From Ideonella benzenivorans (GTDB lineage Bacteria; Pseudomonadota; Gammaproteobacteria; Burkholderiales; Burkholderiaceae_C): DNA of 64,000 nucleotides. The position numbers were made by a program, and so were the translations under genes. Positions 51,240-64,000 of this stretch are shown piece by piece (position 1 is the first letter of the stretch; the number at the start of each line of letters is the position of its first letter). The notes beneath the pieces were generated by a model. That model saw only the letters and a program-made list of their open reading frames with translations. It had not been told where the DNA came from and did no database searches. The stretch is from NCBI RefSeq assembly GCF_020387415.1, contig NZ_JAGWCB010000010.1, forward strand, positions 1 to 64,000, written 5' to 3'.

Positions 51240-51956
51240 ATGCAGCGCCTCCAGCGTGACAGGGTCGGGATCACGGATGGCCCGGCATCCCCTCCCACCG
51301 GCTCACTGCCCCAGCATCTGTGGTCGAGGGCACGACCGCTGTTCTGGTTCAAGACCGTGGGCATCTCCAGCTTCACGGCGCTGTTCTTCGTGGCCTACCT
51401 CCACCTGCTCAAGCACCCCAGCGGGCCGGTCACGACGATGCCGCAGATCTGGCTGGACGGACGAATCCCCTTTTCGCCGCTCGCGCTGCCGGTGTACCTG
51501 TCGCTCTGGGTGTATCTCTCGATCCCCCCCACCCTGATGACCCGACGCAGCGAGATTGTCGGTTTCGGCTGGCGCATCGCCCTCGTCTGCCTGATTGGGC
51601 TGCTGGTGTTCTGGTTCTGGCCCAATGCCGTCCCCCCGGCTCACGTCGACTGGGCCCGCTATCCCGGCATGGGTTTTCTCAAAGGCGTGGATGCCGCCGG
51701 CAATGCCTGCCCCTCGCTGCATGTGGCCACGGCCGTGTTTGCCGCCTTCTGGATCCATCACCAGCTGCCCACCTTGGGGCTGGGGCGGCGGACCCGCTGG
51801 GGCAACGGCCTGTGGTGCCTGGCCATCTGCTATTCCACCGTGGCCACCCGTCAACATGTGGTGGTGGACGTGCTGGCCGGCGGCCTGCTGGGGCTGGGCG
51901 TGGCTTGGCTGACCCATCCCGTCACCAGCCCCCACCGAACGCACCGGCATGCCTGA
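51240..51956 (+). CDS. PAP2-superfamily membrane phosphatase-like protein
   Basis: The 238-aa protein has about six membrane helices and two parts of the PAP2 active site: ACPSLHVATA (motif 2, His) and STVATRQHVVVDVLAG (motif 3, His and Asp). The classical first motif KxxxxxxRP is not evident, as in the PAP2-C/inositol phosphorylceramide synthase-like branch. It may act on lipid phosphates. It starts 3 bp after the preceding stop with a weak ribosome-binding site and ends 78 bp before the acyl carrier protein, so it may or may not belong to the polyene cluster. Confidence 0.75.
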   Translation: MQRLQRDRVGITDGPASPPTGSLPQHLWSRARPLFWFKTVGISSFTALFFVAYLHLLKHPSGPVTTMPQIWLDGRIPFSPLALPVYLSLWVYLSIPPTLMTRRSEIVGFGWRIALVCLIGLLVFWFWPNAVPPAHVDWARYPGMGFLKGVDAAGNACPSLHVATAVFAAFWIHHQLPTLGLGRRTRWGNGLWCLAICYSTVATRQHVVVDVLAGGLLGLGVAWLTHPVTSPHRTHRHA

Positions 51957-51981
51957 GCTGCGTTGCCTGGAGGCGCTCGGC

Positions 51982-52008
51982 TACAATCTGACATAAAGCC
52001 TTGTCAGA
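51982..52008 (+). promoter_or_regulatory. Candidate promoter -10 and inverted repeat ahead of the polyene cluster
   Basis: TACAAT (51982-51987) is a good -10 element, with a weak -35 (TGCGTT) 17 bp upstream. It runs into a perfect inverted repeat, TCTGACA-N8-TGTCAGA (51987-52008), 27 nt before the acyl carrier protein start. An operator overlapping a transcription start is suggested; a leader hairpin is the alternative. Confidence 0.45.
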
Positions 52009-52034
52009 ACTGATAATTTCCGTCCCCGAGTACC

Positions 52035-52325
52035 ATGACCCTGCCCGACGAGCAAGCCGACACGATTCAGCCGGCGCTGGAAACCGAACTTGCACAGATG
52101 CTCGTGACCGAGCTGGGCCTGGAAGTGAGCGCCCAGGACATCGACCCCACCCAGCCGCTGTACGGTGACGGCCTGGGGCTGGACTCCATCGACATCCTGG
52201 AGGTGGCCCTGCTGATCGGCAAGAAGTACGGCGTTCAGATGAAGGCCGACAACGCCGACAACTTCCGCATCTTTGGCTCTCTTCGCAGTCTGGCCCAGTA
52301 CGTCGGACAGCATCGCCCTCAATGA
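52035..52325 (+). CDS. Acyl carrier protein of the aryl-polyene-type cluster
   Basis: The 96-aa four-helix carrier has the phosphopantetheine site GLGLDSIDILEV with the modified Ser51, and the family helix order (ELAQMLVTELG, ILEVALLIGKKYG). It should carry the starter or growing polyene chain. It corresponds to ApeE/ApeF of the E. coli aryl polyene cluster by position and size. It overlaps the next gene by ATGA. Confidence 0.9.
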   Translation: MTLPDEQADTIQPALETELAQMLVTELGLEVSAQDIDPTQPLYGDGLGLDSIDILEVALLIGKKYGVQMKADNADNFRIFGSLRSLAQYVGQHRPQ

Positions 52326-52978
52326 TTCCCCTGCCGCCCTTGGCCAAGCGGCTGGCCGCCGCGGCCTTGGCGGCGCTGTACCTGGTGCTGAGCTTTCTGG
52401 CCGGTGCCTCGGATCACCCTCCCTTGCTCGCCGTGGTGGTCAGCCTGGCCCCCATGGCCTTCATGGCGCTGGTCTTCGCCTGGCACCAGTCCGGCTGGAG
52501 GCGCAGTGTGCTGCTGACGCTGTGGGGGCTGCTGGTGGTCGGCGTGGGGCTCCAGCTCAGCGCCCTGAGCCGCCATGTGGCCACCGTGTTCTTCCTGCAG
52601 CACGTCGGGGCCATGGGGTTCCTGGGCCTGATGTTTGGCCACACGCTGGGACAGGGCCATGACCGGGCCCTGTGCTCTCGCATCGCTGCATTCATCACCC
52701 CGGAGCCCCTGGACGCCCGCTACCTGCGCTACACCTGGCAGGTGACCTGTGCCTGGACGACGTTCTTCGCGCTCATGTTCGGCCTGTCGACGGCGTTGTT
52801 CCTGAGTGGCCGCCTCTGGTGGTGGTCCCTGCTGGCCAATGTCCTCACGCCGGCACTGGTGGGGAGCCTGTTCGTCGCCGAGTACCTGGTGCGCCTGCGG
52901 GTGCTGCCTGATCGCCCCCACATGGATGTGCGCCAGACCATCCAGGCCTACCAGCGCTTCCGCCAGGCCCAACGCTGA
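52322..52978 (+). CDS. COG4648-family membrane protein (ApeG-like)
   Basis: The 218-aa product has about six hydrophobic helices, starting at LAAAALAALYLVLSFLAG, and a C-terminal helix ending in RQTIQAYQRFRQAQR. In the E. coli aryl polyene cluster a COG4648 protein of unknown role sits right between the acyl carrier proteins and the aryl ligase, as here. No catalytic motif is obvious. Translation is coupled to the carrier protein gene. Confidence 0.78.
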   Translation: MIPLPPLAKRLAAAALAALYLVLSFLAGASDHPPLLAVVVSLAPMAFMALVFAWHQSGWRRSVLLTLWGLLVVGVGLQLSALSRHVATVFFLQHVGAMGFLGLMFGHTLGQGHDRALCSRIAAFITPEPLDARYLRYTWQVTCAWTTFFALMFGLSTALFLSGRLWWWSLLANVLTPALVGSLFVAEYLVRLRVLPDRPHMDVRQTIQAYQRFRQAQR

Positions 52979-52991
52979 ATTGCGCCCCGTC

Positions 52992-54350
52992 ATGCCCGCC
53001 CATCTGCCCCTGCTTGCGGCTCAGCCCGCGGACGCGATCGTCGCTTGGCGACGCTCGGCCCCCGTGACCCGCCAAGACTTCCTGAACCAGGTCCGGCAAC
53101 TGGCCGCCCGATTGCCGGAGGTGCCCGAGGTCGTCAACCTCTGCCAGGACCGCTACGGGTTCAGCGTGAGCTTTCTGGCCTGCGTGGCACGCGGCATTCG
53201 GAGTCTGTTGCCGCACTCGCTGGCCCCGGAGTCCCTGGCCGGTGTGTGGAGCCAGGCCCCCCAGGCCCCTGCGCTGTGGGACACCCCGCCTGCCGACCTG
53301 AGCCACTGCCCCGCCTCGGTCATCGCCATCCACGCACTGTTGGACCTGCCGGCGCTGCCCCTGCCGGATGAGGAGGTCATGGTCCCGGCCGAGCAGGTGG
53401 TCGCACGGGTCTTCACCTCAGGCTCCACGGGCCACCCCCAGTCCCATGACAAGCAGTGGGGGCACCTGGCGGCCAGCGTGCAGGCCGCCTCCAGCCGGTT
53501 GTGGCAGCAGGCCGGTGGCCCTTGCAGCGTGATCGGCACGGTCAGTTTCCGGCACATGTACGGGCTGGAGTCCACGGTGCTGCTGCCCCTGCGGGGCGCG
53601 GGCGTGCTGACGGACGAACTGCCCTTCTTTCCGGCGGACATTGCCGCCGCGTTGACGCGCGCGCCGGGCCGCCGCCTGCTCGTCACCACGCCCTTTCACC
53701 TGCGCAAGCTGCTCGAAGCCGAACAGCCCGCCCCCCAGGTCGATCTGCTGCTGTCGGCGACGGCCCCATTGGGCCGTGCGCTGGCCGAACGGGCCGAGGC
53801 CCAGTTGCACGCGCCGCTGCTGGAGATCTACGGGGCCACCGAGATGGGCCAGGTGGCCACGCGCCGCACCACCCAGGGCCCGCGCTGGCAACTGCTGGCA
53901 GGCTGTGAACTGCGCCAGGACGAACGGGGCGGCCTCACCATGCATGGCACCTCCCAGGCACGCCCCCAGCCGGTCCACGATGTCATCGAGATCACCGGCC
54001 CGGACAGCTTCGAGCTGATCGATCGCCCGGGCAACCTGGTGAACATCGTGGGCAAGCGCACCTCGCTCACCTACCTCAACCAGCTGCTGAACAGCCTGCC
54101 CGGCGTGCAGGATGGGGTGTTCTGCCTGCCGCCCGGCCGGGAGTCGAACGACGATGCCCGGCTCGCGGCGTTCGTGGTGGCACCTGAACTGCAGGCTGCC
54201 GACGTGCTGAACGCCCTGCGAGCGCACCTGGATCCCGTGTTTCTGCCTCGCCCGCTCGTCCTGCTGGATCATCTGCCCCACGACGTGAACGGCAAGATCA
54301 CGTCGGCCGTGGTCCAGACCCTGGTGGCGCAGCACCTGGGAGGCGCCTGA
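52992..54350 (+). CDS. AMP-dependent aryl/acyl ligase (ApeH-like)
   Basis: The 452-aa product is an ANL-superfamily adenylating enzyme. It has the phosphate loop FTSGSTGHPQSHDKQW, the A5-like YGATEMGQV (adenine and Glu), and the C-terminal catalytic-lysine motif PHDVNGKIT. By analogy with ApeH it would activate an aryl acid and load it on the acyl carrier protein. The ATG at 52992 opens the conserved part; longer in-frame starts overlap the previous gene. It is the shortest form of the family. Confidence 0.85.
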   Translation: MPAHLPLLAAQPADAIVAWRRSAPVTRQDFLNQVRQLAARLPEVPEVVNLCQDRYGFSVSFLACVARGIRSLLPHSLAPESLAGVWSQAPQAPALWDTPPADLSHCPASVIAIHALLDLPALPLPDEEVMVPAEQVVARVFTSGSTGHPQSHDKQWGHLAASVQAASSRLWQQAGGPCSVIGTVSFRHMYGLESTVLLPLRGAGVLTDELPFFPADIAAALTRAPGRRLLVTTPFHLRKLLEAEQPAPQVDLLLSATAPLGRALAERAEAQLHAPLLEIYGATEMGQVATRRTTQGPRWQLLAGCELRQDERGGLTMHGTSQARPQPVHDVIEITGPDSFELIDRPGNLVNIVGKRTSLTYLNQLLNSLPGVQDGVFCLPPGRESNDDARLAAFVVAPELQAADVLNALRAHLDPVFLPRPLVLLDHLPHDVNGKITSAVVQTLVAQHLGGA

Positions 54351-54353
54351 GAC

Positions 54354-54659
54354 ATGACCCGGACCGCCCTCAGCATTCCGGCCGATCACCCGGCCTTCGC
54401 GGGCCATTTCCCGACCCACCCCATCGTCCCGGGCGTGGTGCTCCTGGCCCTGGCCCAGCAGGCCCTGGAAGCCCAGTTCGGCGAGGTCTTCGCCGGCCTG
54501 GCTTCGGCCAAGTTCCTGCGCCCGCTGGGTCCGGGCGAAGCGGTCTGGCTCACGTCCACCGCCACCGACACCGGTGTGAGCTTCTCGCTGCATCGGGAAG
54601 ACGGCGAAACGCTGGTGGCCAGTGGCCGCTTCCTGCGCACGCCGCGTGCGGGGGGCTGA
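54354..54659 (+). CDS. Hotdog-fold 3-hydroxyacyl-ACP dehydratase (ApeI-like)
   Basis: The 101-aa FabZ-like protein has the catalytic-type motif AFAGHFPTHPIVPGVVLLALAQ with His18. It is too short for a full dehydratase, in keeping with E. coli ApeI, which works as a heteromer with ApeP. The second hotdog partner here is at 61547. It follows the ligase by 3 bp. Confidence 0.85.
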   Translation: MTRTALSIPADHPAFAGHFPTHPIVPGVVLLALAQQALEAQFGEVFAGLASAKFLRPLGPGEAVWLTSTATDTGVSFSLHREDGETLVASGRFLRTPRAGG

Positions 54660-54663
54660 GCCG

Positions 54664-55590
54664 ATGACGCCCTCCCGTTCAACCCCGCGGCCCGAGTGGA
54701 TGAGCCAGAAGGAACGCGGCAGTCTCACGCTGCTGCGCATCATGACCTGGCTCTCGCTCAGGCTCGGCCGCCGACTGACCCGACCCGTCGTGGCCCTCAT
54801 CGCCCTGTACTTCCTGCTCACGGCCACGGCGGCCCGGCGGGCGTCGGCCAGCTACCTCGCCCGCTGCCTGGGTCGCCCGGCCACCTGGCGAGACCTCTAT
54901 CGCCACATGCATGCCTTCGCCTCCACGGTCCATGACCGGGTCTACCTGCTCAACGATCGCTTCGAGCTGTTCGACATCCGCCCCACGGGGCATGCGGCGC
55001 TGGGTCAGCTCAACGGCGAAGGCCAGGGCCTGCTGCTGTTGGGGGCGCATCTGGGCAGTTTCGAGGCCCTGCGAGCGCTGGCGCGTCACCACAGCCAGTT
55101 TCAGCTGAGCGTGGCCATGTACCTGGAGAACGCACGCCAGATCCACGACACACTGGCGGCGATCAACCCGGCAGCAGCCCCCGACATCATTGCCCTGGGC
55201 CAGCTTGAAGCCATCCTCACCCTGCATCAGCGGCTCCAGGAGGGCCGCATGGTCGGCGTCCTGGCGGACCGGGCCTCCGGCTCGGACCAATACCTTGAGA
55301 TGTCTTTTCTGGGTGGGCTGGCCCCTTTCCCCTGCGGCCCGTTCCGTCTCGCCGTCATGCTGCAGCAGCCGATCTTCTTCATGACCGGCCTGTACCGAGG
55401 GGGTCGCCGCTACGACCTGCACTTCGAGCCTCTGCACCTTGACCCCGCCCTGGGCCGGGACCGCGAGGCCCAGATCCATGCCCTGATGGCGCAGTACGTC
55501 GCCCGGCTGGAGCGGTATTGCCGTGAGGCGCCCTACAACTGGTTCAACTTCTATGATTTCTGGCAATCGCCCGCTTCTCCCCAAGCCTGA
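54664..55590 (+). CDS. LpxL/HtrB-like acyltransferase
   Basis: The 308-aa product is a LPLAT-superfamily acyltransferase of the lipid A type. The catalytic H-x4-E lies in LLLGAHLGSFEALRAL, followed by GVLADR. It has an N-terminal hydrophobic helix anchoring it to the inner membrane. In aryl polyene clusters an acyltransferase attaches the polyene to a lipid; this one is standalone, not fused to a glycosyltransferase as in E. coli ApeJ. Its stop overlaps the next gene by 38 nt. Confidence 0.85.
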   Translation: MTPSRSTPRPEWMSQKERGSLTLLRIMTWLSLRLGRRLTRPVVALIALYFLLTATAARRASASYLARCLGRPATWRDLYRHMHAFASTVHDRVYLLNDRFELFDIRPTGHAALGQLNGEGQGLLLLGAHLGSFEALRALARHHSQFQLSVAMYLENARQIHDTLAAINPAAAPDIIALGQLEAILTLHQRLQEGRMVGVLADRASGSDQYLEMSFLGGLAPFPCGPFRLAVMLQQPIFFMTGLYRGGRRYDLHFEPLHLDPALGRDREAQIHALMAQYVARLERYCREAPYNWFNFYDFWQSPASPQA

Positions 55591-56179
55591 GCTCAAGGCC
55601 TGGGTCCGTCGTCACGCCGGCATCCTGGCCCTGGGCCTGGGCTGCCTCGCCCCCGCCTGGGCCCAGCCCTGGACCCCGTCGACACTGATGCAGGCCCTGG
55701 CCACCCACAAGTCGGCCAAGGCCACTTTCGTCGAACGCAAGTACCTCGCCGTGCTGGACCAGCCCGTGGAATCGCGCGGTGAGCTGTCGTTCACCGCCCC
55801 CGACCGGCTGGAGAAGCGCACGCTCTCGCCCCGCCCGGAATCCCTGGTGCTACAGGGCGACACGCTCACGGTGGACGACGCCAACAAGCGCCGCATGACC
55901 CTGAGCCTGAACAGCAGCCCCGAGGCCGCGGCCTTCGTGGAAAGCATTCGCGGCACCTTGGCAGGCGACCTGGCGGCACTGCAGAAGTACTACAGCCTCG
56001 AACTCAACGGCAGCGAGGCACGCTGGAAGCTGCTGCTGGTGCCACAGCAGGCGCGCATGGCCAAGCTGGTCAGCCGCATCCGCATGGAGGGCAGCGGGAC
56101 CTCGGTGCGTCTGATCGTGTTCGAACAGGCCGACGGCGACCGCTCGGAAATGCAGATCACGCCGGTGCCCAACCCATGA
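55553..56179 (+). CDS. LolA-family lipid carrier of the polyene cluster (ApeL-like)
   Basis: The 208-aa protein has a signal peptide (GILALGLGCLAPAWA) and LolA-like strands (SAKATFVERKYLAVLDQPVESRGEL in part, LVLQGDTLTVDD). A homologue (ApeL) sits in the E. coli cluster directly ahead of the MMPL exporter, as here. It probably ferries the hydrophobic polyene lipid across the periplasm. It is well diverged from the housekeeping lolA at 2332. Confidence 0.82.
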   Translation: MISGNRPLLPKPELKAWVRRHAGILALGLGCLAPAWAQPWTPSTLMQALATHKSAKATFVERKYLAVLDQPVESRGELSFTAPDRLEKRTLSPRPESLVLQGDTLTVDDANKRRMTLSLNSSPEAAAFVESIRGTLAGDLAALQKYYSLELNGSEARWKLLLVPQQARMAKLVSRIRMEGSGTSVRLIVFEQADGDRSEMQITPVPNP

Positions 56180-58527
56180 TGCGCCGCTGGCTGTCCTGGC
56201 CGGTCGGGCTCTGGGTCCTGTTGCTGGCCCTGGGCGCAGGCGTCATCGCGCAGACCCGCTTCGTGGCCGACCTCTCGGCCTTCATGCCGCGGCTGCCCAC
56301 CGAGCGGCAGCAGCTCTTGCTCGACCAGCTGCAGGATGGCATCGTGGCCCGGCTCATCATGGTCGGCATCGAGGGCGGCGACGCCAGCAGCCGCGCCCGC
56401 CTCTCCCGCACGCTGGGGCAGCAGCTGCGGCAGGACCCCGCCTTCCAAGGTGTGCAGAACGGCGACGCCGAACTGCAGGACCGCGACCGCAGCTTCTTCT
56501 TCGAGCACCGCTACCTGCTGAGCCCCGCGGTGACCCCCGAGCGTTTCACCGTGGAGGGTTTGCGCCAGGCCATCGACGAATCCCTGCAGGGCCTGGCGGG
56601 CAACGGTGGCCTGCTGTTGAAAAGCCTGCTGCCCCGGGATCCCTCCGGCGAGACCCTGGCCCTGCTGGCCCAGTTCAACGGCGAGTCGCAGCCGGCCAGC
56701 CTGGAAGGGGCCTGGGCGTCGCGGGACGGGCAACGGGCCATCCTGCTGCTGCAGACGCGCGCCGCCGGATCCGACATCGACGCGCAGGCGGCCGCCCAGC
56801 AGCGCATCCGCACCCTGTTCGCCCAATTGCCGGACCGGCCGGCGGACGCCCGGCTGGTGATGAGCGGCACCGGCGTGTTCTCCGTGGCCTCCCGCGCCAC
56901 CATCCAGTCGGAGGTGAGCCGGCTGGCCACAGTGAGCCTGGTGCTGGTCGTGGGCCTGCTGCTGACGGTGTACCGCTCGCCGCGGCTGCTGTTGCTGGGC
57001 CTGCTGCCGGTGCTCAGCGGCGCCGTGGCCGGGGTGGCGGCGGTCAGCCTGGGCTTCGGTCAGGTGCATGGCCTGACCCTGGGCTTCGGCACCACCCTGA
57101 TCGGCGAGGCGGTGGACTACTCCATCTACCTCTTCGTGCAGCGGGCCGACCGGCAGGCCCCGGCCCACTTCTGGCGCACCATCCGCCTGGGGGTCCTCAC
57201 CTCCATCGTCGGCTTCGCGGCCATGCTCCTGTCCGGCTTCCCCGGTCTGGCCCAGCTGGGTCTGTATTCCATTGCCGGCCTGCTGGCCGCGGTGCTGGTG
57301 ACCCGGTTCGTGCTGCCCCGGCTGATGCCGGCGGTGCTGCCCCTGCGTGACCTGGCCCCGATGGGACAGGTTCTGCTGGGCGCGCTGCGGAAGCTGCCCC
57401 GGCTGCGGCCCGGGGTCGTCGTGCTGCTGGTGCTGGCCAGCGGCCTGCTGGCCTGGCGCCATGATCACATCTGGAACCGGCAACTCTCCGCGCTCAGCCC
57501 GGTGTCGCAGGCCGATCAGGCCCTGGACGCCAGCCTGCGCGCCGATCTGGGCGCTCCCGACCTGCGCTACATCGCCAGCATCTCCGCGCCCGACGAGGAA
57601 ACCGCTCTGCAACGGGCCGAACAGGCCGCGCAGGTGCTGCGCCACCTGCAGGACGCGCAGTGGCTGGGCGGCGTCAGCTCACCCACGCTGGCCCTGCCCA
57701 GCCAGGCCACCCAACAGGCGCGCCGGGCCGCCCTGCCACCGGCCGACACCCTGCGCAGCCGGCTGACCGAGGCGCTGCAGGGCTCACCGCTCAAGGCCGA
57801 GCGGCTCCAGGGCTTCGTGGAGGACGTGGCGCGGTCCCGCCAGGCGCCCCTGATTCACCGGGCCGACCTGCAGGACAGTTCGGCCGGCATGCTGGTGGAC
57901 TCGCTGCTGGTGCACCGCGGGCATGACGTGCTCGCCCTCCTGCCCCTGCACGCAGCGCCCGGCCAGGCCGATGGCGAGCTGGACGTGGCGCGCATCGCGC
58001 AGGCCCTGCAGGCAGCCCAGGTGTCCAACATCACCGTGATCGACCTGCTGGCCGAGACCACCAGCGTTTTCGACCACTACCTGCACGAGGCCCTGCGCAT
58101 GTCGGGCCTGGGCATGCTGGCGGTGCTGGTGCTGCTGGTCCTGCATCTGCGGAACGGTCCCCGTGTGCTGCGTGTGGCCCTGCCGCTGGCCTGCGCCGTC
58201 CTGACCGTGGCCTGCGGTCTGGTGTGGAGCGGCCACCCGCTCACCATCCTGCACCTGGTGGGCCTGCTGCTGGTGGTGGCCGTGGGGTCGAACTACGCCC
58301 TGTTCTTCGACAGCGGCCTGGGCCAGGGCAGCCCGCAGGAGCAAGGCCGCACCTTGGTGTCGCTCGCGGTGGCCAACCTCACCACCGTCTGCAGCTTCGC
58401 CACCCTGGGACTGTCCAAGGTGCCCCTGTTGGCGGCCATGGGCAGCACGGTGGCCCCGGGTGCCCTGCTGGCCCTGCTGTTCTCCGCCATCCTCTGCAGC
58501 CCGCGGGGGGCACGCCATGCCCGGTGA
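56176..58527 (+). CDS. MMPL-family lipid exporter (ApeM-like)
   Basis: The 783-aa RND-superfamily protein has about 12 helices in two blocks (first around residues 240-410, second from about 640) and large periplasmic loops. The helical region includes LGFGTTLIGEAVDYSIYLFV, the proton-relay Asp-containing segment, and VVAVGSNYALFFDSG in the second half. It is translated with the LolA-like gene (ATGATG overlap). It should move the polyene lipid out of the inner membrane. Confidence 0.88.
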   Translation: MMRRWLSWPVGLWVLLLALGAGVIAQTRFVADLSAFMPRLPTERQQLLLDQLQDGIVARLIMVGIEGGDASSRARLSRTLGQQLRQDPAFQGVQNGDAELQDRDRSFFFEHRYLLSPAVTPERFTVEGLRQAIDESLQGLAGNGGLLLKSLLPRDPSGETLALLAQFNGESQPASLEGAWASRDGQRAILLLQTRAAGSDIDAQAAAQQRIRTLFAQLPDRPADARLVMSGTGVFSVASRATIQSEVSRLATVSLVLVVGLLLTVYRSPRLLLLGLLPVLSGAVAGVAAVSLGFGQVHGLTLGFGTTLIGEAVDYSIYLFVQRADRQAPAHFWRTIRLGVLTSIVGFAAMLLSGFPGLAQLGLYSIAGLLAAVLVTRFVLPRLMPAVLPLRDLAPMGQVLLGALRKLPRLRPGVVVLLVLASGLLAWRHDHIWNRQLSALSPVSQADQALDASLRADLGAPDLRYIASISAPDEETALQRAEQAAQVLRHLQDAQWLGGVSSPTLALPSQATQQARRAALPPADTLRSRLTEALQGSPLKAERLQGFVEDVARSRQAPLIHRADLQDSSAGMLVDSLLVHRGHDVLALLPLHAAPGQADGELDVARIAQALQAAQVSNITVIDLLAETTSVFDHYLHEALRMSGLGMLAVLVLLVLHLRNGPRVLRVALPLACAVLTVACGLVWSGHPLTILHLVGLLLVVAVGSNYALFFDSGLGQGSPQEQGRTLVSLAVANLTTVCSFATLGLSKVPLLAAMGSTVAPGALLALLFSAILCSPRGARHAR

Positions 58528-59347
58528 CGCCAACGGCAACAGTCAGCCCGCCTGGCGCCCTGCGCCCCTGCTCGTGGCCAGCGGCCTGCTGCACCTGGCC
58601 CTGCTGGGGACGGTCTGCCTGCGCCCCGTGCTCTGGCCGTGGGGTCTCGGCCTGCTGCTGCTCAATCACCTGCTGATCAGCCTGTGCGGCCTGCTGCCGC
58701 GCTGCCGCTGGCTGGGGCCGACCCTGGTGCGCCTGCCGGAGGCCGCGCGGCAGCGCGGCGAAGTGGCCCTGACCTTCGACGATGGCCCGGACCCGGAGGT
58801 CACGCCCCAGGTCCTGGCCCTGCTGGCTGCACACGGCGTTCACGCCACGTTCTTCTGCATCGGGCAGCGGGCCGCAGCTCACCCTGAACTCTGCCAAGCA
58901 TTGGTCGATGCCGGCCACGAAGTCGGCAACCATGGGCACCGGCACCCGTGGCACGCGTCCTTCATGGGGCCTGGCGGCTGGCGCGACGAAATCTCGCAAG
59001 GGCAGGCGACCCTTCACCGCCTGACCGCGCAAACCCCGCGTTTCTACCGAGCCGTGGCGGGACTGCGCAACCCCTTTCTGGCCCCCGTCCTGCACCGGCT
59101 GGGCCTGCAACTGGCGGCCTGGACCCGGCGCGCCTACGACACCCGCTGCGGCGACCCTGACGTGGTCCTGCGGCGCCTGACGCACCGGCTCGCGGCCGGC
59201 GACATCCTCCTGCTGCACGATGGCCATGGCGCCCGCACGCCCCAGGGCGAGCCGGTGGTATTGGCCGTGCTGCCCCGCCTGCTGGCGCGGCTGGCCTCGC
59301 AGGGTTTGAGGCCCGTTACACTCTCGCAGGCATGCACGCCCCCTTGA
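58517..59347 (+). CDS. Polysaccharide deacetylase-like (NodB-homology) protein with membrane anchor
   Basis: The 276-aa product has two hydrophobic segments at the N-terminus and a NodB domain with motif 1 TFDDGPDPEVTPQVLALL (Asp pair), motif 2 HGHRHPWH (zinc histidines), and a C-terminal segment LLLHDGHGA. The family removes acetyl groups from sugars. It replaces the DUF3261 gene (ApeN) that stands here in E. coli. It overlaps the exporter by 11 nt. The substrate in this cluster is unknown. Confidence 0.82.
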   Translation: MPGDANGNSQPAWRPAPLLVASGLLHLALLGTVCLRPVLWPWGLGLLLLNHLLISLCGLLPRCRWLGPTLVRLPEAARQRGEVALTFDDGPDPEVTPQVLALLAAHGVHATFFCIGQRAAAHPELCQALVDAGHEVGNHGHRHPWHASFMGPGGWRDEISQGQATLHRLTAQTPRFYRAVAGLRNPFLAPVLHRLGLQLAAWTRRAYDTRCGDPDVVLRRLTHRLAAGDILLLHDGHGARTPQGEPVVLAVLPRLLARLASQGLRPVTLSQACTPP

Positions 59348-59565
59348 CGTTCACTCGCCTGCGTGCGGCCAAGCCCCTCGGAGGCATTCGCCTCACCCGG
59401 ATGCGCCATGCCTCGGCGAGGCTGCGTTGGCGGGTCAGCCAGTGGGTGGACCGGGGCCTGTCCTGTGCCCAAGGACACCGTCTCAGCAGAATGTGATGCG
59501 GCGGGTTGCGCAACCCCACCGACCGGCTCTCTTCCCCGTTCTCGACTCACGCTTGCAGGTTCTCC

Positions 59566-60759
59566 GTGCCGGCCATTGAACTCACCTCCTACACCTTGAC
59601 CAGTGCCCTGGGCGCTGGCCTGGATGCCACCTGGGCCGCCCTGCAATCCAAGCGCAGCGGCCTGGCCCGACGCGCCTGGGAAACCGTGGACCTGGACACC
59701 TGCATCGGTGAGGTGGAGGGCCTGGACGACCTGCCGGTGCCCGCCCCATGGCAGGCCTTCGACTGCCGCAACAACCGCCTGGCCTTGCTGGCCCTGCGAC
59801 AGGATGGCTTCGAAGCGGCCGTGCACGCAGCCATCGCACGCCATGGCGCCCACCGGGTGGGGGTGTTCCTGGGCACCAGCACCTCCGGCATCCTGAGTTC
59901 GGAGCTGGCCTATCGCGAGCGCGACGCCGAAGGCCATCTGCCAGCCTGGCTGGACTACCGCCACACCCACAACACCTACTCCGTGGCCGATTTCGTGCGG
60001 CACCACTTCGGTCTGAAGGGCCCCGCCGTCGTGGTCTCCACCGCCTGCTCCTCCAGTGCCAAGGTGTTTGCCAATGCACAGCGGATGATGCGCGCTGGTC
60101 TCATCGACGCCGCTGTGGTCGGCGGGGTCGATTCCTTGTGCCTGACCACGCTGTACGGCTTCACCTCGCTGCAACTGGTGGCCCAGGCCCCCTGCCGGCC
60201 CTGGGATGCCGCACGCAACGGCCTCTCGATCGGCGAGGCGGCCGGCTTCGCCCTGCTGGAATGGTCAGAGACCCCGACGCCCGGGGCCATCCTGCTGTCC
60301 GGCGTGGGCGAATCCAGCGACGGACACCACATGTCCGCCCCGCATCCCGAGGGCCTGGGGGCCCGGCTGGCCATGCAGGGCGCCCTCGACGCCGCGGGTC
60401 TGCGCCCCGAGGATGTGGACTACATCGCGCTGCACGGCACCTCCACCTCGGCCAATGACGCCGCGGAGGACAAGGCGGTGGTCGGCCTGTTCGGGGCCGG
60501 CACCGTGCCCTGCAGCTCCCTCAAGGGACACACCGGCCACACGCTGGGCGCCGCCGGCATCGTCAATGCCGTGGTGGGGGCTCTGGCCCTGACGCACGGC
60601 CTGGCCCCCGCCGGCGTCGGCACCCAACAGCTTGACCCGACCCTGTCCTCGCGCTACCTGCTGGACAACCTGCGCCTCCCCTTGCGGCATGTGCTGGGCA
60701 ACTCCTTCGGCTTCGGCGGCAGCAACTGCAGCGTCCTGCTGTCCAGGGAGGTCGCATGA
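59566..60759 (+). CDS. Beta-ketoacyl-ACP synthase (ApeO-like)
   Basis: The 397-aa FabF-type ketosynthase has the catalytic Cys161 in VSTACSSSAKVF, His290 in ALHGTSTSANDAAE and His322 in LKGHTGHTLGAAG. It should extend the aryl starter with malonyl units. I place the start at GTG 59566, where PAIELTSYTLTSALG opens the thiolase fold; an ATG at 59506 in the same frame would add 20 uncharacteristic residues. A 218-bp gap precedes it. Its partner follows immediately. Confidence 0.88.
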   Translation: MPAIELTSYTLTSALGAGLDATWAALQSKRSGLARRAWETVDLDTCIGEVEGLDDLPVPAPWQAFDCRNNRLALLALRQDGFEAAVHAAIARHGAHRVGVFLGTSTSGILSSELAYRERDAEGHLPAWLDYRHTHNTYSVADFVRHHFGLKGPAVVVSTACSSSAKVFANAQRMMRAGLIDAAVVGGVDSLCLTTLYGFTSLQLVAQAPCRPWDAARNGLSIGEAAGFALLEWSETPTPGAILLSGVGESSDGHHMSAPHPEGLGARLAMQGALDAAGLRPEDVDYIALHGTSTSANDAAEDKAVVGLFGAGTVPCSSLKGHTGHTLGAAGIVNAVVGALALTHGLAPAGVGTQQLDPTLSSRYLLDNLRLPLRHVLGNSFGFGGSNCSVLLSREVA

Positions 60760-61550
60760 GCGAGCCACTCGCCACGGTCCATCTGCAAAGCATCGGTCTG
60801 TACGGCCCCGGCATGAGCGGCTGGGCCGAGGCCCTGCCGGTGCTGCGCGGCGAACAGCCGCTGACGCTGACCCCGACCGAGCTGCCCGCCCCCACCTCGC
60901 TGCCGCCGGCAGAGCGACGGCGCGTCGGCGTGGCGCTGAAGCTGGCCATGGCCACCGGCCTGGATGCCGTGCAGGCCGCCGGTGCCGACGCCCACACGCT
61001 GGCCACGGTCTTCTCCTCCACCGGGGGCGACTGCGACAACTGCCACCACCTGCTGGACACGCTGGCCTCCGCCGACCGCGCCGTGTCGCCCACCCGCTTC
61101 CACAACTCGGTGCACAACATGCCCGCCGGCTATTGGGGCATCGCCAGCCACTGCCTGGCTCCCTCCACCAGCCTGTGCGCCTACGACGCCACCTTTGCCG
61201 CCGGCCTGCTGGAGGCCTTCACGCAGGTGCAGACCAGCGCGCAGCCGTGTCTGCTCGTGGCCTTTGACACGGCCTATCCCGAGCCGCTGCGCCAGGTCCG
61301 CCCCATCCCCTACGCCTTCGGGGTCGCGCTGCTGTTGAGCCCCGAGCCGACCACCGGCCCGCGCCTGCAGCTGGAACTCACCCAGGCCCCGCCGGACACC
61401 CTGGCCGATCCGGCGCTGGAGACGCTGCGCACCGCGGTGCCCGCCGCACGCGCACTGCCCTTGCTGCAGGGCCTGGCCCGGCAGACCGCCGGCCACTGGG
61501 TGCTGGACTATCTTGAAGACCTGCAGCTGCGGGTGAGCGTGCAGGCATGA
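60756..61550 (+). CDS. Short KS-like partner (chain-length-factor type, ApeC-like)
   Basis: The 264-aa protein matches the N-terminal half of a ketosynthase and resembles PF13723-type proteins. The position of the catalytic cysteine reads LAPSTSLCAYDATF, so the TACSSS motif is gone, and there is no C-terminal His pair. In E. coli, ApeC pairs with the ketosynthase ApeO as a chain-length-determining subunit; the overlap with the ketosynthase gene (ATGA) fits a complex. Shorter than a complete KS fold. Confidence 0.82.
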   Translation: MSEPLATVHLQSIGLYGPGMSGWAEALPVLRGEQPLTLTPTELPAPTSLPPAERRRVGVALKLAMATGLDAVQAAGADAHTLATVFSSTGGDCDNCHHLLDTLASADRAVSPTRFHNSVHNMPAGYWGIASHCLAPSTSLCAYDATFAAGLLEAFTQVQTSAQPCLLVAFDTAYPEPLRQVRPIPYAFGVALLLSPEPTTGPRLQLELTQAPPDTLADPALETLRTAVPAARALPLLQGLARQTAGHWVLDYLEDLQLRVSVQA

Positions 61551-61984
61551 GCCACGACCACGCCTGGATCGCGGCCCACATCCCGCACCAGGGACGCATG
61601 TGCCTGCTCGACGCCGTCTCTGAATGGGACGACGAGCACATCGTCTGCACCGCCAGCAGCCATCGGGCCCCCGACCACCCTTTGCGGACCACGCGCGGCC
61701 TGGAGATCACGGCCGGCATCGAATACGCGGCCCAGGCCATGGCGGTGCACGGCGCCCTCACCACCCCCGAGGCCGCCGCCGCCCGGCAGGGCTATCTGAC
61801 CAGCGTGCGCGACGTGCAGTGGCAACAGCCCCGGCTCGACACCGTGGACTCGCCGCTGCAAGTCCACGCCGAACGCCTCTCGGCCAACGGCATGACGGTG
61901 CTGTACCGCTTCTGGCTGGCCGCCGATGGGCACAATCTGCTCAGCGGCCGCGCCACCGTGGTGCTGGACGCCGAGAAGCTCTGA
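61547..61984 (+). CDS. Hotdog-fold dehydratase (ApeP-like)
   Basis: The 145-aa hotdog protein has IPHQGRMCLLDAV, matching the FabA/FabZ histidine region, and TAGIEYAAQAMAVHGAL, with the likely acidic residue. It is the expected second dehydratase subunit alongside the protein at 54354. It overlaps the preceding gene by ATGA and lies 8 bp before the ketoreductase. The final half is divergent from FabZ. Confidence 0.85.
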   Translation: MSHDHAWIAAHIPHQGRMCLLDAVSEWDDEHIVCTASSHRAPDHPLRTTRGLEITAGIEYAAQAMAVHGALTTPEAAAARQGYLTSVRDVQWQQPRLDTVDSPLQVHAERLSANGMTVLYRFWLAADGHNLLSGRATVVLDAEKL

Positions 61985-61992
61985 CTTTCCCG

Positions 61993-62733
61993 ATGAACAC
62001 TCCCGAGAAACCCCGGCGCAAGGCCCTGGTGACCGGTGGCAGCGGCGCCATCGGCGCGGCCATCTGCCGCCGCCTGGCCGCGGACGGCCTGCATGTGCTG
62101 GTGCACGCCAACCGGCAGGCGGCTGCCGCCCAGGCCCTGTGTGAGCAGTTGCGCGACAGCGGCGCCACGGCCGACTGGGTGCAGTTCGATGTCACCGATG
62201 GCGAGGCCTGCCAGCGGGCCCTGGAGGCGGTGCTGGCCGACGGCCCGGTGCAGGTGCTGGTGAACAACGCCGGCATCCACGACGACGCGGCCTTTCCGGG
62301 CATGTCCGCCCTGCAATGGCACCGCGTGATCGACGTGTCCCTGCATGGCTTCTTCAACGTCACGCAGCCACTGTCCATGCCCATGGTCCGCAGCCGCTGG
62401 GGCCGCATCATCTCGGTGTCTTCGGTCGCCGCGCTGACCGGCAACCGGGGCCAGACCAACTATGCGGCCGCCAAGGCCGGCCTGCATGCCGCCAGCAAAT
62501 CCCTGGCCCAGGAACTCGCCAGCCGCCACATCACCGTCAACGTGGTGGCCCCCGGCATCATCGAATCCGAGATGTCGGCCGGCGTGTTCGACCCGGAGAC
62601 CATCGCCCGCCTGGTGCCGATGAAACGCGCGGGCAGCCCGGACGATGTGGCCCATCTGGTGGGCTTCCTCGCCAGCGAACAGGCCCGTTACATCACGGGA
62701 CAGGTGATCTCCGTCAACGGGGGCATGGTCTGA
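61993..62733 (+). CDS. 3-oxoacyl-ACP reductase, SDR family (ApeQ/FabG-like)
   Basis: The 246-aa short-chain dehydrogenase has the NADP(H)-binding TGGSGAIGAAICR, NNAG in LVNNAGIHDD, and the catalytic Ser and Tyr-Lys in SVSSVAALTGNRGQTNYAAAKAG. It would reduce the beta-keto group at each cycle. Start ATG 61993 gives 246 aa, the standard length. It lies 4 bp before the chorismatase gene, so they are one transcript. Confidence 0.9.
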   Translation: MNTPEKPRRKALVTGGSGAIGAAICRRLAADGLHVLVHANRQAAAAQALCEQLRDSGATADWVQFDVTDGEACQRALEAVLADGPVQVLVNNAGIHDDAAFPGMSALQWHRVIDVSLHGFFNVTQPLSMPMVRSRWGRIISVSSVAALTGNRGQTNYAAAKAGLHAASKSLAQELASRHITVNVVAPGIIESEMSAGVFDPETIARLVPMKRAGSPDDVAHLVGFLASEQARYITGQVISVNGGMV

Positions 62734-62737
62734 TCCC

Positions 62738-63766
62738 ATGAGCGCGATCGCGACGCCGACCGCCCTGACCTCTGGCCTGGCCTTCCTCCTCGCCCCGACG
62801 CCCGCCGAAGCAGAACGCCGGGCCCAGGTCGTGGGCCTGACGCCCTTGGGTGGGCTCAGCCCATCCGTGCCCGCCGATGCGGGGAGCGCGCCCTGGCTGC
62901 CGCTGAACATGCCCTTGCTGGGCAGCAGCGAACTCGCCAGCCAGCTCTGGTGCCTGCCGGGACCGGTCTCGGCCTGGCAGCACAGCACCGACACCGGGGT
63001 GCACCTGCACGCCCGCGTCGCCCGCGATGCCCAGTTCCTGCTGGCCGAATCCCGCGTGGACGGACCGCTGGCCACCCAGGCCCGCCACCTCTACACCGCC
63101 GTGCTCGGCGCGCTGCGTGGCAGTGGCCACCCCCACCCCATCCGCTTCTGGAACTATCTGGCCGACATCCACGGCACCGAGGACGGTGAAGAGCGCTACC
63201 GGCGCTTCAACCAGGGCCGCCGCGAGGCCATGCAGGCCCTGGGCTGCGCCATCACCGAAGGGGCTCCCGCCGCCTGTGCGCTGGGCAACCGAGAAGGGCG
63301 ACTGCGCGTGGCGGTGCTCAGCGGGGCCCAGGCGCCCCGTGCGATCGAGAACCCGCGCCAGGTCAGCGCCTACCACTACCCCGCGCAGTATGGGCGGACC
63401 CCGCCCGTGTTCTCGCGCGCCGCGCTGCTGCCCTTGCCCTTCGGCCGCGACCTGCTGCTGATCAGCGGCACCGCCAGCATCGTGGGCCACCAGAGCCTGC
63501 ACGAAGGCGATGTACAGGCCCAGACCGAGGAGGCCTTGCGCAACATCGAGGCCCTGCTGGCGCAGGCCTGCGCGGGGCGCCCGGCGTTGTCCTTGTCTGA
63601 ACTCAGCGGCCGGGTCTATGTCCGCCACCCGGCCGATGTGCCCCGGGTGCTGGACCGTCTGGTCGCGCGCGGCATGACGGGCTTCAGCGTGCTGCAGGCC
63701 GAGGTGTGCCGCCGTGAACTGCTGGTGGAAATCGAGGCGGAGGGCTGGGTGACCCATGCCGGCTGA
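62738..63766 (+). CDS. Chorismatase (XanB2/Hyg5/FkbO family), hydroxybenzoate-forming
   Basis: The 342-aa product has the chorismatase signature IRFWNYLADIHG and ERYRRFNQGRREA (residues about 134-165), SGTASIVGHQSLHEGDVQAQ (about 244) with the RidA-like core, and the C-terminal EVCRRELLVEIEAEG. These enzymes split chorismate to 3-hydroxybenzoate, 4-hydroxybenzoate or related products. In Xanthomonas the enzyme XanB2 supplies the hydroxybenzoate starter for xanthomonadin. It lies inside the polyene operon, so it probably provides the aryl head group. Which product it makes is not readable. Confidence 0.85.
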   Translation: MSAIATPTALTSGLAFLLAPTPAEAERRAQVVGLTPLGGLSPSVPADAGSAPWLPLNMPLLGSSELASQLWCLPGPVSAWQHSTDTGVHLHARVARDAQFLLAESRVDGPLATQARHLYTAVLGALRGSGHPHPIRFWNYLADIHGTEDGEERYRRFNQGRREAMQALGCAITEGAPAACALGNREGRLRVAVLSGAQAPRAIENPRQVSAYHYPAQYGRTPPVFSRAALLPLPFGRDLLLISGTASIVGHQSLHEGDVQAQTEEALRNIEALLAQACAGRPALSLSELSGRVYVRHPADVPRVLDRLVARGMTGFSVLQAEVCRRELLVEIEAEGWVTHAG

Positions 63767-64000
63767 GACGCGGGGCCTGCGCCGGGCCGGGCAGGTGCTG
63801 CTGTTCTACCTGCTGCTGCTGTGGCTGGGCGGCATGCTGCTGGCCGGCAACTTGTTCTGCCTGCCGCTGGCGCTCGTGCCCGCACGCGTTCGGCAGCCCC
63901 TCATGCAGCGACTGATCAGTGCCCTGTTCCGGCTCTTCCTGGCCGGCTGCACCCGCTGCGGCCTGATGCGGCTGGACCTGACGGCCCTCGACGAGCTCAA
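63756..64000 (+). CDS. Second LPLAT-type acyltransferase, N-terminal fragment
   Basis: The first 81 residues are seen before the window ends. The sequence begins MPAETRGLRRAGQVLLFYLL, has a strongly hydrophobic first 40 residues with CLPLALVP, then RLISALFRLFLAG, typical of the opening of 1-acylglycerol-phosphate acyltransferase-like LPLATs. The catalytic HX4D is beyond the edge. It overlaps the chorismatase gene by 11 nt, so it continues the same operon. Family is provisional until the rest is seen. Confidence 0.6.
   Translation, partial: MPAETRGLRRAGQVLLFYLLLLWLGGMLLAGNLFCLPLALVPARVRQPLMQRLISALFRLFLAGCTRCGLMRLDLTALDEL

Follow-up and report, generated by a model that had tools for sequence, protein, structure and literature searches.

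The 64,000-nucleotide stretch of Ideonella benzenivorans DNA analyzed here (the window) is the first 64,000 bases of a 792,480-base contig (NZ_JAGWCB010000010.1; contig C9) from a 4.49-Mb genome that is 99% complete, and contig and window numbering are the same. Near its end lies a gene cluster that we read, with a probability of about 0.82, as an arcuflavin/xanthomonadin-type aryl polyene lipid cluster that is complete though streamlined and whose product is expected to keep its ring hydroxyl free. That product is predicted to be a yellow, membrane-bound aryl polyene pigment with a chorismate-derived ring. A chorismatase gene is encoded together with the polyene genes, and a short spacer near the end of the cluster retains the start of a methyltransferase gene that the nearest relative still carries.

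Gene content and relationship to known systems

The cluster consists of 17 genes in one direction from 51240 to 65803, bounded by herA and glnS; the window stops at 64000. Several neighboring genes overlap by a few bases each. The features in order from herA to glnS are as follows.

51240–51956, + strand: PAP2-family membrane phosphatase (PF01569, 34.9 bits)
51988–52017, + strand: sigma-70-like promoter match, directly upstream of the next gene
52035–52325, + strand: acyl carrier protein (ACP), ArcV/ApeE-like (PF00550, 38.0 bits; NCBIfam PRK09184, 123 bits, cut-off 70)
52322–52978, + strand: membrane protein in the ArcU/ApeG position (from position and homologues)
52992–54350, + strand: AMP-forming aryl ligase, ArcT-like (PF00501, 57.9 bits)
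54354–54659, + strand: small hotdog dehydratase 1, ApeI/ArcS-like (PF07977, FabA-like, 24.6 bits, cut-off 23)
54664–55590, + strand: LpxL/HtrB-like lipid acyltransferase 1, ArcR-like (PF03279, 30.5 bits)
55553–56179, + strand: LolA-like periplasmic lipid carrier, ArcQ-like (LolA_3, PF19574, 73.5 bits; start set at the first ATG)
56176–58527, + strand: MMPL/RND-type lipid exporter, ArcP-like (PF03176, 59 bits)
58517–59347, + strand: NodB-like polysaccharide deacetylase, ArcN-like (PF01522, 101.5 bits)
59506–60759, + strand: ketosynthase (KS), ApeO/ArcK type (NCBIfam PRK09185, 521 bits, cut-off 407; start codon uncertain)
60756–61550, + strand: chain-length factor (CLF), ApeC/ArcJ type (PF13723, N-terminal ketoacyl-synthase model only, 109 bits)
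61547–61984, + strand: hotdog dehydratase 2, ApeP/ArcI type (profile match to 6qsr_B)
61993–62733, + strand: ketoreductase, ApeQ/ArcH type (NCBIfam FabG model, 362.9 bits, cut-off 273)
62738–63766, + strand: chorismatase, ArcB/XanB2-like (PF21168, 92.8 bits, cut-off 27)
63756–64526, + strand: PlsC-like acyltransferase 2, ArcD-like, crossing the window end (PF01553, 47.2 bits)
64546–65301, + strand, outside the window: family 2 glycosyltransferase (PF00535, 71.7 bits)
65302–65347, outside the window: deletion scar of 46 bases (alignment to I. oryzae)
65348–65803, + strand, outside the window: 4HBT thioesterase (PF13279, 71.8 bits)

A preliminary description of the window, made from its letters, had proposed an aryl-polyene/xanthomonadin-type cluster with a dedicated chorismatase, incomplete at the window edge. 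The gene content, the PF21168 match and a Hyg5 fold match agree with the first part, and the genes do continue on the contig to 65803. Every family that it named was supported by a model or profile, except that its label for the membrane protein, COG4648, had no model match. It had missed the deacetylase, the two acyltransferases and PAP2, plus the glycosyltransferase and thioesterase past the window. It had also left room beyond the edge for a second ketosynthase, a methyltransferase or a halogenase; open reading frames and a family scan of the stretch from 64000 to glnS revealed none of the three, and only the acyltransferase running over the edge, the glycosyltransferase and the thioesterase lie there. 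No second ketosynthase (ApeR) was found between herA and glnS, and no methyltransferase is present in the cluster.

The dehydratases and the synthase pair were characterized further by profile and structure matches. Dehydratase 1 matched FabZ structures and, weakly, 6qsr_A, and scored 17.3 bits against the ApeI-like model (under the cut-off of 28.5). Dehydratase 2 as a single sequence matched no Pfam or NCBIfam model, and its 19-sequence profile (A2) matched PDB 6qsr_B, a FabA/FabZ dehydratase (E 2.3e-11), which we take to be part of the ApeI-ApeP complex. The ligase and the LolA-like protein were under cut-off for two more specific models: 4-coumarate--CoA ligase (91 bits, cut-off 335) and flexirubin LolA2 (59 bits, cut-off 125), respectively. 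In the ACP, the phosphopantetheine serine is presumably residue 51, in a DSID motif. The best PDB sequence matches of the KS were 7f28_B and 6qsp_A, and 6qsp_B and 7f28_A were the only PDB matches of the CLF at E ≤ 0.01; 6QSP is the ApeO-ApeC pair of X. doucetiae (PMC8358021).

The closest described counterpart is the arc system of Azoarcus BH72 (arcA-L and arcM-X), whose Table 1 holds a nearly gene-for-gene counterpart set (PMC3949708), matched here by annotation. Both systems encode a chorismatase, two acyltransferases, a glycosyltransferase, a ketoreductase, two dehydratases, CLF, KS, deacetylase, exporter, LolA-like carrier, AMP ligase, ACP and a protein in the ArcU position. The Azoarcus genes form two unlinked loci, whereas ours form one; the halogenase, methyltransferase, antiporter, arcF, MipA-like arcC, arcL and two-component genes of Azoarcus have no counterpart in the window locus, which differs also in having a 4HBT thioesterase and PAP2. 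Insertions in arcK or arcT gave colorless mutants, and the same 2014 study describes related clusters in Dechloromonas, Variovorax and Sideroxydans (PMC3949708). Lysobacter enzymogenes OH11, a member of the Xanthomonadaceae that we compare by description only, shares a single KS with a CLF-like partner, an ACP, a ketoreductase, two dehydratases and a XanB2 homologue feeding 3-hydroxybenzoate (3-HBA); the text of that paper does not contain the word methyltransferase (PMC3691225). The ape clusters of E. coli and A. baumannii share the KS-CLF pair, the dehydratase pair, the ketoreductase, RND/Lol-like export and acyltransferases, and solved ApeO-ApeC structures are the ones that our KS and CLF match best. 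They differ in having ApeR, a second ACP and, in E. coli, the methyltransferase ApeB (PMC8253772, PMC8358021), and their proposed starter is 4-hydroxybenzoate (4-HBA) (PMC8253772); the window cluster has a chorismatase. The chorismatase-fed design is already known from Azoarcus, Xanthomonas and Lysobacter, and the mixture that the preliminary description had seen in it is not new.

A deletion scar in place of two methyltransferase genes

Comparisons with named organisms used the best 80 of at least 583 relatives of the chorismatase; many of these loci have incomplete flanks, a few of the genomes are also in the family set described below, and the window genome's own records may be excluded. 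The closest match was in I. oryzae NS12-5 (66% identity over the best segment), with the other 79 loci at 39–53%. HerA was 92.6% identical to that of I. oryzae, and 81% and 76% identical to those of two same-genus genomes. The I. oryzae locus (L067, L180) holds an orthologous cluster between herA and glnS, with proteins 66–89% identical to those of the window. It contains additional genes. A second ACP and a second KS (ACP2 and KS2) precede PAP2, which is followed by a third dehydratase and a MipA-like protein; two S-adenosylmethionine (SAM) methyltransferases lie between the glycosyltransferase and the thioesterase, and a histidine kinase and LytTR response regulator in the thioesterase–glnS interval (L067:15241-17283). 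Azoarcus arcW/arcX, like these regulatory genes, are a two-component pair (PMC3949708).

The first I. oryzae methyltransferase is UbiE/COQ5-like (PF01209, 106 bits). It had matches of at least 43% identity in 29 of the 80 named loci, a count that takes in the I. oryzae locus itself and one fragment, and in 5 of 29 family loci, the two sets overlapping in part; two Rhodoferax relatives in the KS clade of the window carry both methyltransferases. When homologues of the pair were sought in the window genome, only distant matches (26–39% identity) were obtained, and the best match to the first (L176) is presumably UbiE.

The 46-bp spacer at 65302–65347 aligned over 38 bases, 32 of them identical, with the I. 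oryzae glycosyltransferase–methyltransferase junction. The first ten methyltransferase codons are kept in it (MSDTSAPIQA versus MSDSSVPIQA), in a reading frame that now overlaps the start of the thioesterase. The alignment scored 26, whereas none of 2000 shuffles scored above 19 and none of 500 control slices from other loci of the genus above 16; the shuffles at this and the other junctions preserved base composition, not dinucleotides. Because these codons are retained, the methyltransferases were lost rather than never gained, and the pair is deleted in the window lineage, unless the assembly is wrong at this point. The ring hydroxyl is predicted to be free because this lineage deleted a pair that its nearest relative keeps; either of the lost enzymes may have acted on the ring. 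Since the methyl group is described as usual, not universal, in xanthomonadins (PMC3949708), ring O-methylation, which arcuflavin has, was not taken as a defining trait.

Three other junctions were tried. The HerA–PAP2 and thioesterase–glnS junctions had no remnant scoring above shuffles. At the PAP2–ACP junction (51933–51961), 24 of 29 bases matched an internal stretch of the MipA-like gene of I. oryzae, with a score of 19 that was reached by none of 1000 shuffles and none of 300 control slices. This one match among three is no more than suggestive of a second scar, in which the last codons of PAP2 would be fused to a MipA-like remnant.

Integrity and sufficiency of the reduced gene set

Pairwise ratios of nonsynonymous to synonymous substitution (dN/dS; Nei-Gojobori, own script) against I. 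oryzae were 0.16–0.39 in all 14 genes compared, a set that left out PAP2, ACP and the membrane protein. These 14 genes are under purifying selection. A decaying, non-functional pigment cluster, in which each gene loss is a step of degeneration, is unlikely on this evidence. It would explain why six I. oryzae genes are missing (ACP2, KS2, the third dehydratase, the MipA-like gene and both methyltransferases), with one clear scar, and why the chorismatase has the highest dN/dS of the 14. Against decay, the compared genes are intact with all values below 0.4, and the motifs that we take as diagnostic for KS, ACP, ketoreductase, acyltransferase and deacetylase are present. The chorismatase also gave a confident predicted structure, with a predicted local distance difference test score (pLDDT) of 84 and a predicted template-modeling score (pTM) of 0.86. 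Finally, in identity to four outgroup loci, the window protein exceeded its I. oryzae counterpart in 4/4 comparisons for CLF, dehydratase 2 and chorismatase, in 3/4 for ketoreductase (one tie) and acyltransferase 2, and in 0/4 for glycosyltransferase. The window lineage thus shows no general speed-up.

Published work on the ape systems suggests how the reduced set could suffice. A lone KS-CLF pair (ApeO-ApeC) makes the fully elongated polyene in vitro, with ApeR increasing throughput (PMC8358021), so a second KS is not required. The E. coli apeR mutant retains APE lipid but accumulates late intermediates, and the second E. coli ACP, ApeF, is not an absolute requirement (PMC8253772). As a guess, malonyl could be carried by the housekeeping ACP or by an ACP encoded elsewhere, beside a KS2-like gene on contig C18. 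That small ACP-ketosynthase locus (G000:C18:336539-340083; L169:3540-7084) also contains an alpha/beta hydrolase and a DUF535 protein, and its ketosynthase shares 48% identity with KS2 of I. oryzae. The other ketosynthase matches in the window genome were at C9:256138, on C20 and, a short one, on C14. Those on C20 (G000:C20:48435-55821) fall in two large frames of 2779 and 1645 residues, probably a modular polyketide locus, with similar-sized counterparts in I. oryzae (G200:C23).

The chorismatase and the starter unit

The chorismatase is predicted to be a 3-HBA synthase. By sequence it matched the Hyg5 structure (E 3e-34), and the top seven fold matches of its predicted model were all Hyg5/FkbO chorismatase chains (E 4e-25 to 3e-23). 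The marks of the 3-HBA-forming class, CH-II, are Gly164, Gly231 and Cys318 of Nat-hyg5, with catalytic Glu325 (PMC7170507). Three of these four positions are kept, as Gly244, Cys324 and catalytic Glu331, matching Hyg5. The Gly, Cys and Glu were present in 80 of 80 named relatives; the first position was Ala in 78 of them and Thr in the other 2. Gly occupies it in three family chorismatases (L038-L040) whose fetched 20-kb surroundings contained no gene of the window cluster. This difference makes the polyene-linked chorismatases a recognizable group, which is likely the XanB2 class, CH-III, defined by the formation of both 3-HBA and 4-HBA. ArcB made 3-HBA in vitro and ArcT acted on it; Azoarcus incorporated fluorinated 3-HBA, not fluorinated 4-HBA (PMC3949708). 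In Lysobacter, pigment fell by about 90% on deletion of the XanB2 homologue and came back when 3-HBA was supplied (PMC3691225). A hydroxybenzoate head, as the preliminary description had put forward, is probable in our judgment as well.

Several observations weigh against a complete, 3-HBA-fed cluster with an unmethylated product. The chorismatase scored 168 bits against TIGR04444, under the cut-off of 325, as did all the matches to that model in 200 family genomes. One of the three CH-II residues is absent, with Ala181 where Hyg5 has Gly173, and the gene is the fastest changing of the 14 compared (65.5% identity, dN/dS 0.39). Only one ACP is encoded in the cluster, and conventional APE clusters use two, which play distinct roles (PMC8358021). 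The membrane protein had no Pfam or NCBIfam match at E 0.01; homologues occur in polyene loci L045 and L050 (35–36% identical) and at 5 of the 80 named loci. Lastly, the search of the window genome covered homologues of the lost pair, and a methyltransferase of another kind, encoded elsewhere, could methylate the product in trans.

A bifunctional chorismatase, needed for both ubiquinone and pigment as in Xanthomonas, is about as improbable as decay. ArcB expressed in E. coli did give compounds matching 3-HBA and 4-HBA in extracts, with 4-HBA arising enzyme-free in vitro too (PMC3949708), but the window genome has its own UbiC-like gene (50–51 bits, cut-off 23.6), I. oryzae has UbiC, and so do 4 of 13 chorismatase-bearing genomes of named organisms. 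Across the family sample, UbiC was not found in 23 of the 29 genomes that have a clear chorismatase, nor in 123 of the remaining 171 (G017, with a weak chorismatase match of 19.8 bits, counted among the latter); its absence is similar in the two groups and thus not associated with having a chorismatase. We accordingly rejected the chorismatase as a stand-in for UbiC in the window genome. Overall, 54 of the 200 family genomes had a UbiC match, 30 a chorismatase match, 6 both and 122 neither of these 4-HBA sources; distant UbiC copies missed by the model likely account for the shortfall.

An arcuflavin-like ester of the polyene with a dialkylresorcinol made by dar genes elsewhere in the genome is slightly less probable again. 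Azoarcus joins both parts in one pigment from unlinked loci (PMC3949708), and the window genome has a second KASIII-type gene (C16:82230-82499); its location after an exonuclease gene and its score of 628 bits against the general KASIII model PRK07515 (cut-off 304) argue weakly against the ester. Least probable is an APE-like cluster with a 4-HBA head from UbiC and a chorismatase serving mainly another pathway: the genome's UbiC-like gene and the predicted 4-HBA start of E. coli APE (PMC8253772) would allow it, but the chorismatase gene overlaps acyltransferase gene 2 inside the operon, 20 of 28 family chorismatase loci have that acyltransferase or the glycosyltransferase nearby, and the starter incorporated by Azoarcus was 3-HBA (PMC3949708).

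Distribution and ketosynthase phylogeny

A clear chorismatase was found in 29 of the 200 same-family genomes; a thirtieth match, in G017, had no cluster gene with it. At 28 chorismatase loci from family relatives, acyltransferase 2 and/or the glycosyltransferase was present in 20 and neither in 8, and at least two of KS, CLF, dehydratase 2 and ketoreductase were present at 15. In the scan of named organisms, at least 583 of at least 595 pattern-matching stretches encoded chorismatase relatives. The glycosyltransferase occurred in 73 and acyltransferase 2 in 69 of the 80 named loci, the deacetylase in 37 and PAP2 in 14; a looser polyene criterion fitted 46 of the 80, and 30 of the 47 with near-full flanks. 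The chorismatase-polyene arrangement is widespread, as PMC3949708 already indicated.

A place of the KS among unrelated fatty-acid genes would have spoken against the preliminary description. The KS instead belongs to a 28-row clade of polyene-locus ketosynthases, apart from three FabF-like rows (100/100 support). Within that clade it forms, with the ketosynthases of I. oryzae, Uliginosibacterium and two Rhodoferax, a group of 5 rows (100/100), and so sits with ketosynthases of other chorismatase-polyene loci.

Same-genus genome G076 had no chorismatase by profile search. Its aryl-polyene-type cluster lies next to an aromatic ammonia-lyase (G076:C11:329689-343371; L157, L171) and has two ketosynthases, over the PRK09185 and PRK09116 cut-offs, which we label ApeO-like and ApeR-like. 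The ApeO-like KS is also in the 28-row clade; both G076 rows are long branches whose exact places in the tree are unsure. This cluster has a FlxJ-family methyltransferase (below cut-off) and a ligase fused to an ApeI-like dehydratase; the 20 kb initially retrieved from it contained no match to the window CLF. In another same-genus genome, G181, there was no chorismatase, and no KS passed the PRK09185 cut-off.

A scan of 14.9 kb for sigma-70-like promoters gave a single match, at 51988–52017, where shuffled sequence gave 0.3 on average; the DNA around the match (51970–52093) is 74% identical in I. oryzae. PAP2, whose I. oryzae orthologue is 79% identical, is probably an accessory gene.

Proposed pathway and significance

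From the gene content we infer the following route. The chorismatase would convert chorismate to 3-HBA, with or without some 4-HBA, and the AMP ligase is predicted to load 3-HBA onto the ACP. The single KS-CLF pair, the ketoreductase and the two-subunit hotdog dehydratase would then carry out malonyl extension to a conjugated aryl polyene acid. The thioesterase, two acyltransferases, glycosyltransferase and deacetylase may attach this acid to a lipid, which we would guess has a sugar-containing anchor, and the MMPL and LolA-like proteins would carry the polyene lipid to the outer membrane. The ring hydroxyl would stay free and unmethylated throughout.

This analysis adds the real end of the cluster, a corrected placement in the literature, and a methyltransferase deletion that makes a sharp prediction about the product. 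A fuller proposal, which we hold tentatively and at somewhat less than even odds, is that the deletion took the methyltransferase pair from an intact cluster, and that the polyene lipid of this species is a free phenol (3-hydroxyphenyl) built with one KS and one ACP, that of I. oryzae a methylated form, and that of the same-genus genome G076 an ammonia-lyase-fed one. The organisms compared are presumably environmental. Two close species with and without the methyltransferase pair, plus a same-genus genome with a different starter route, provide a natural comparison, and the window cluster is a candidate for the smallest set of genes that yields a chorismate-fed polyene lipid. If the proposal is true, one outer-membrane antioxidant pigment would occur in three natural versions within the genus.

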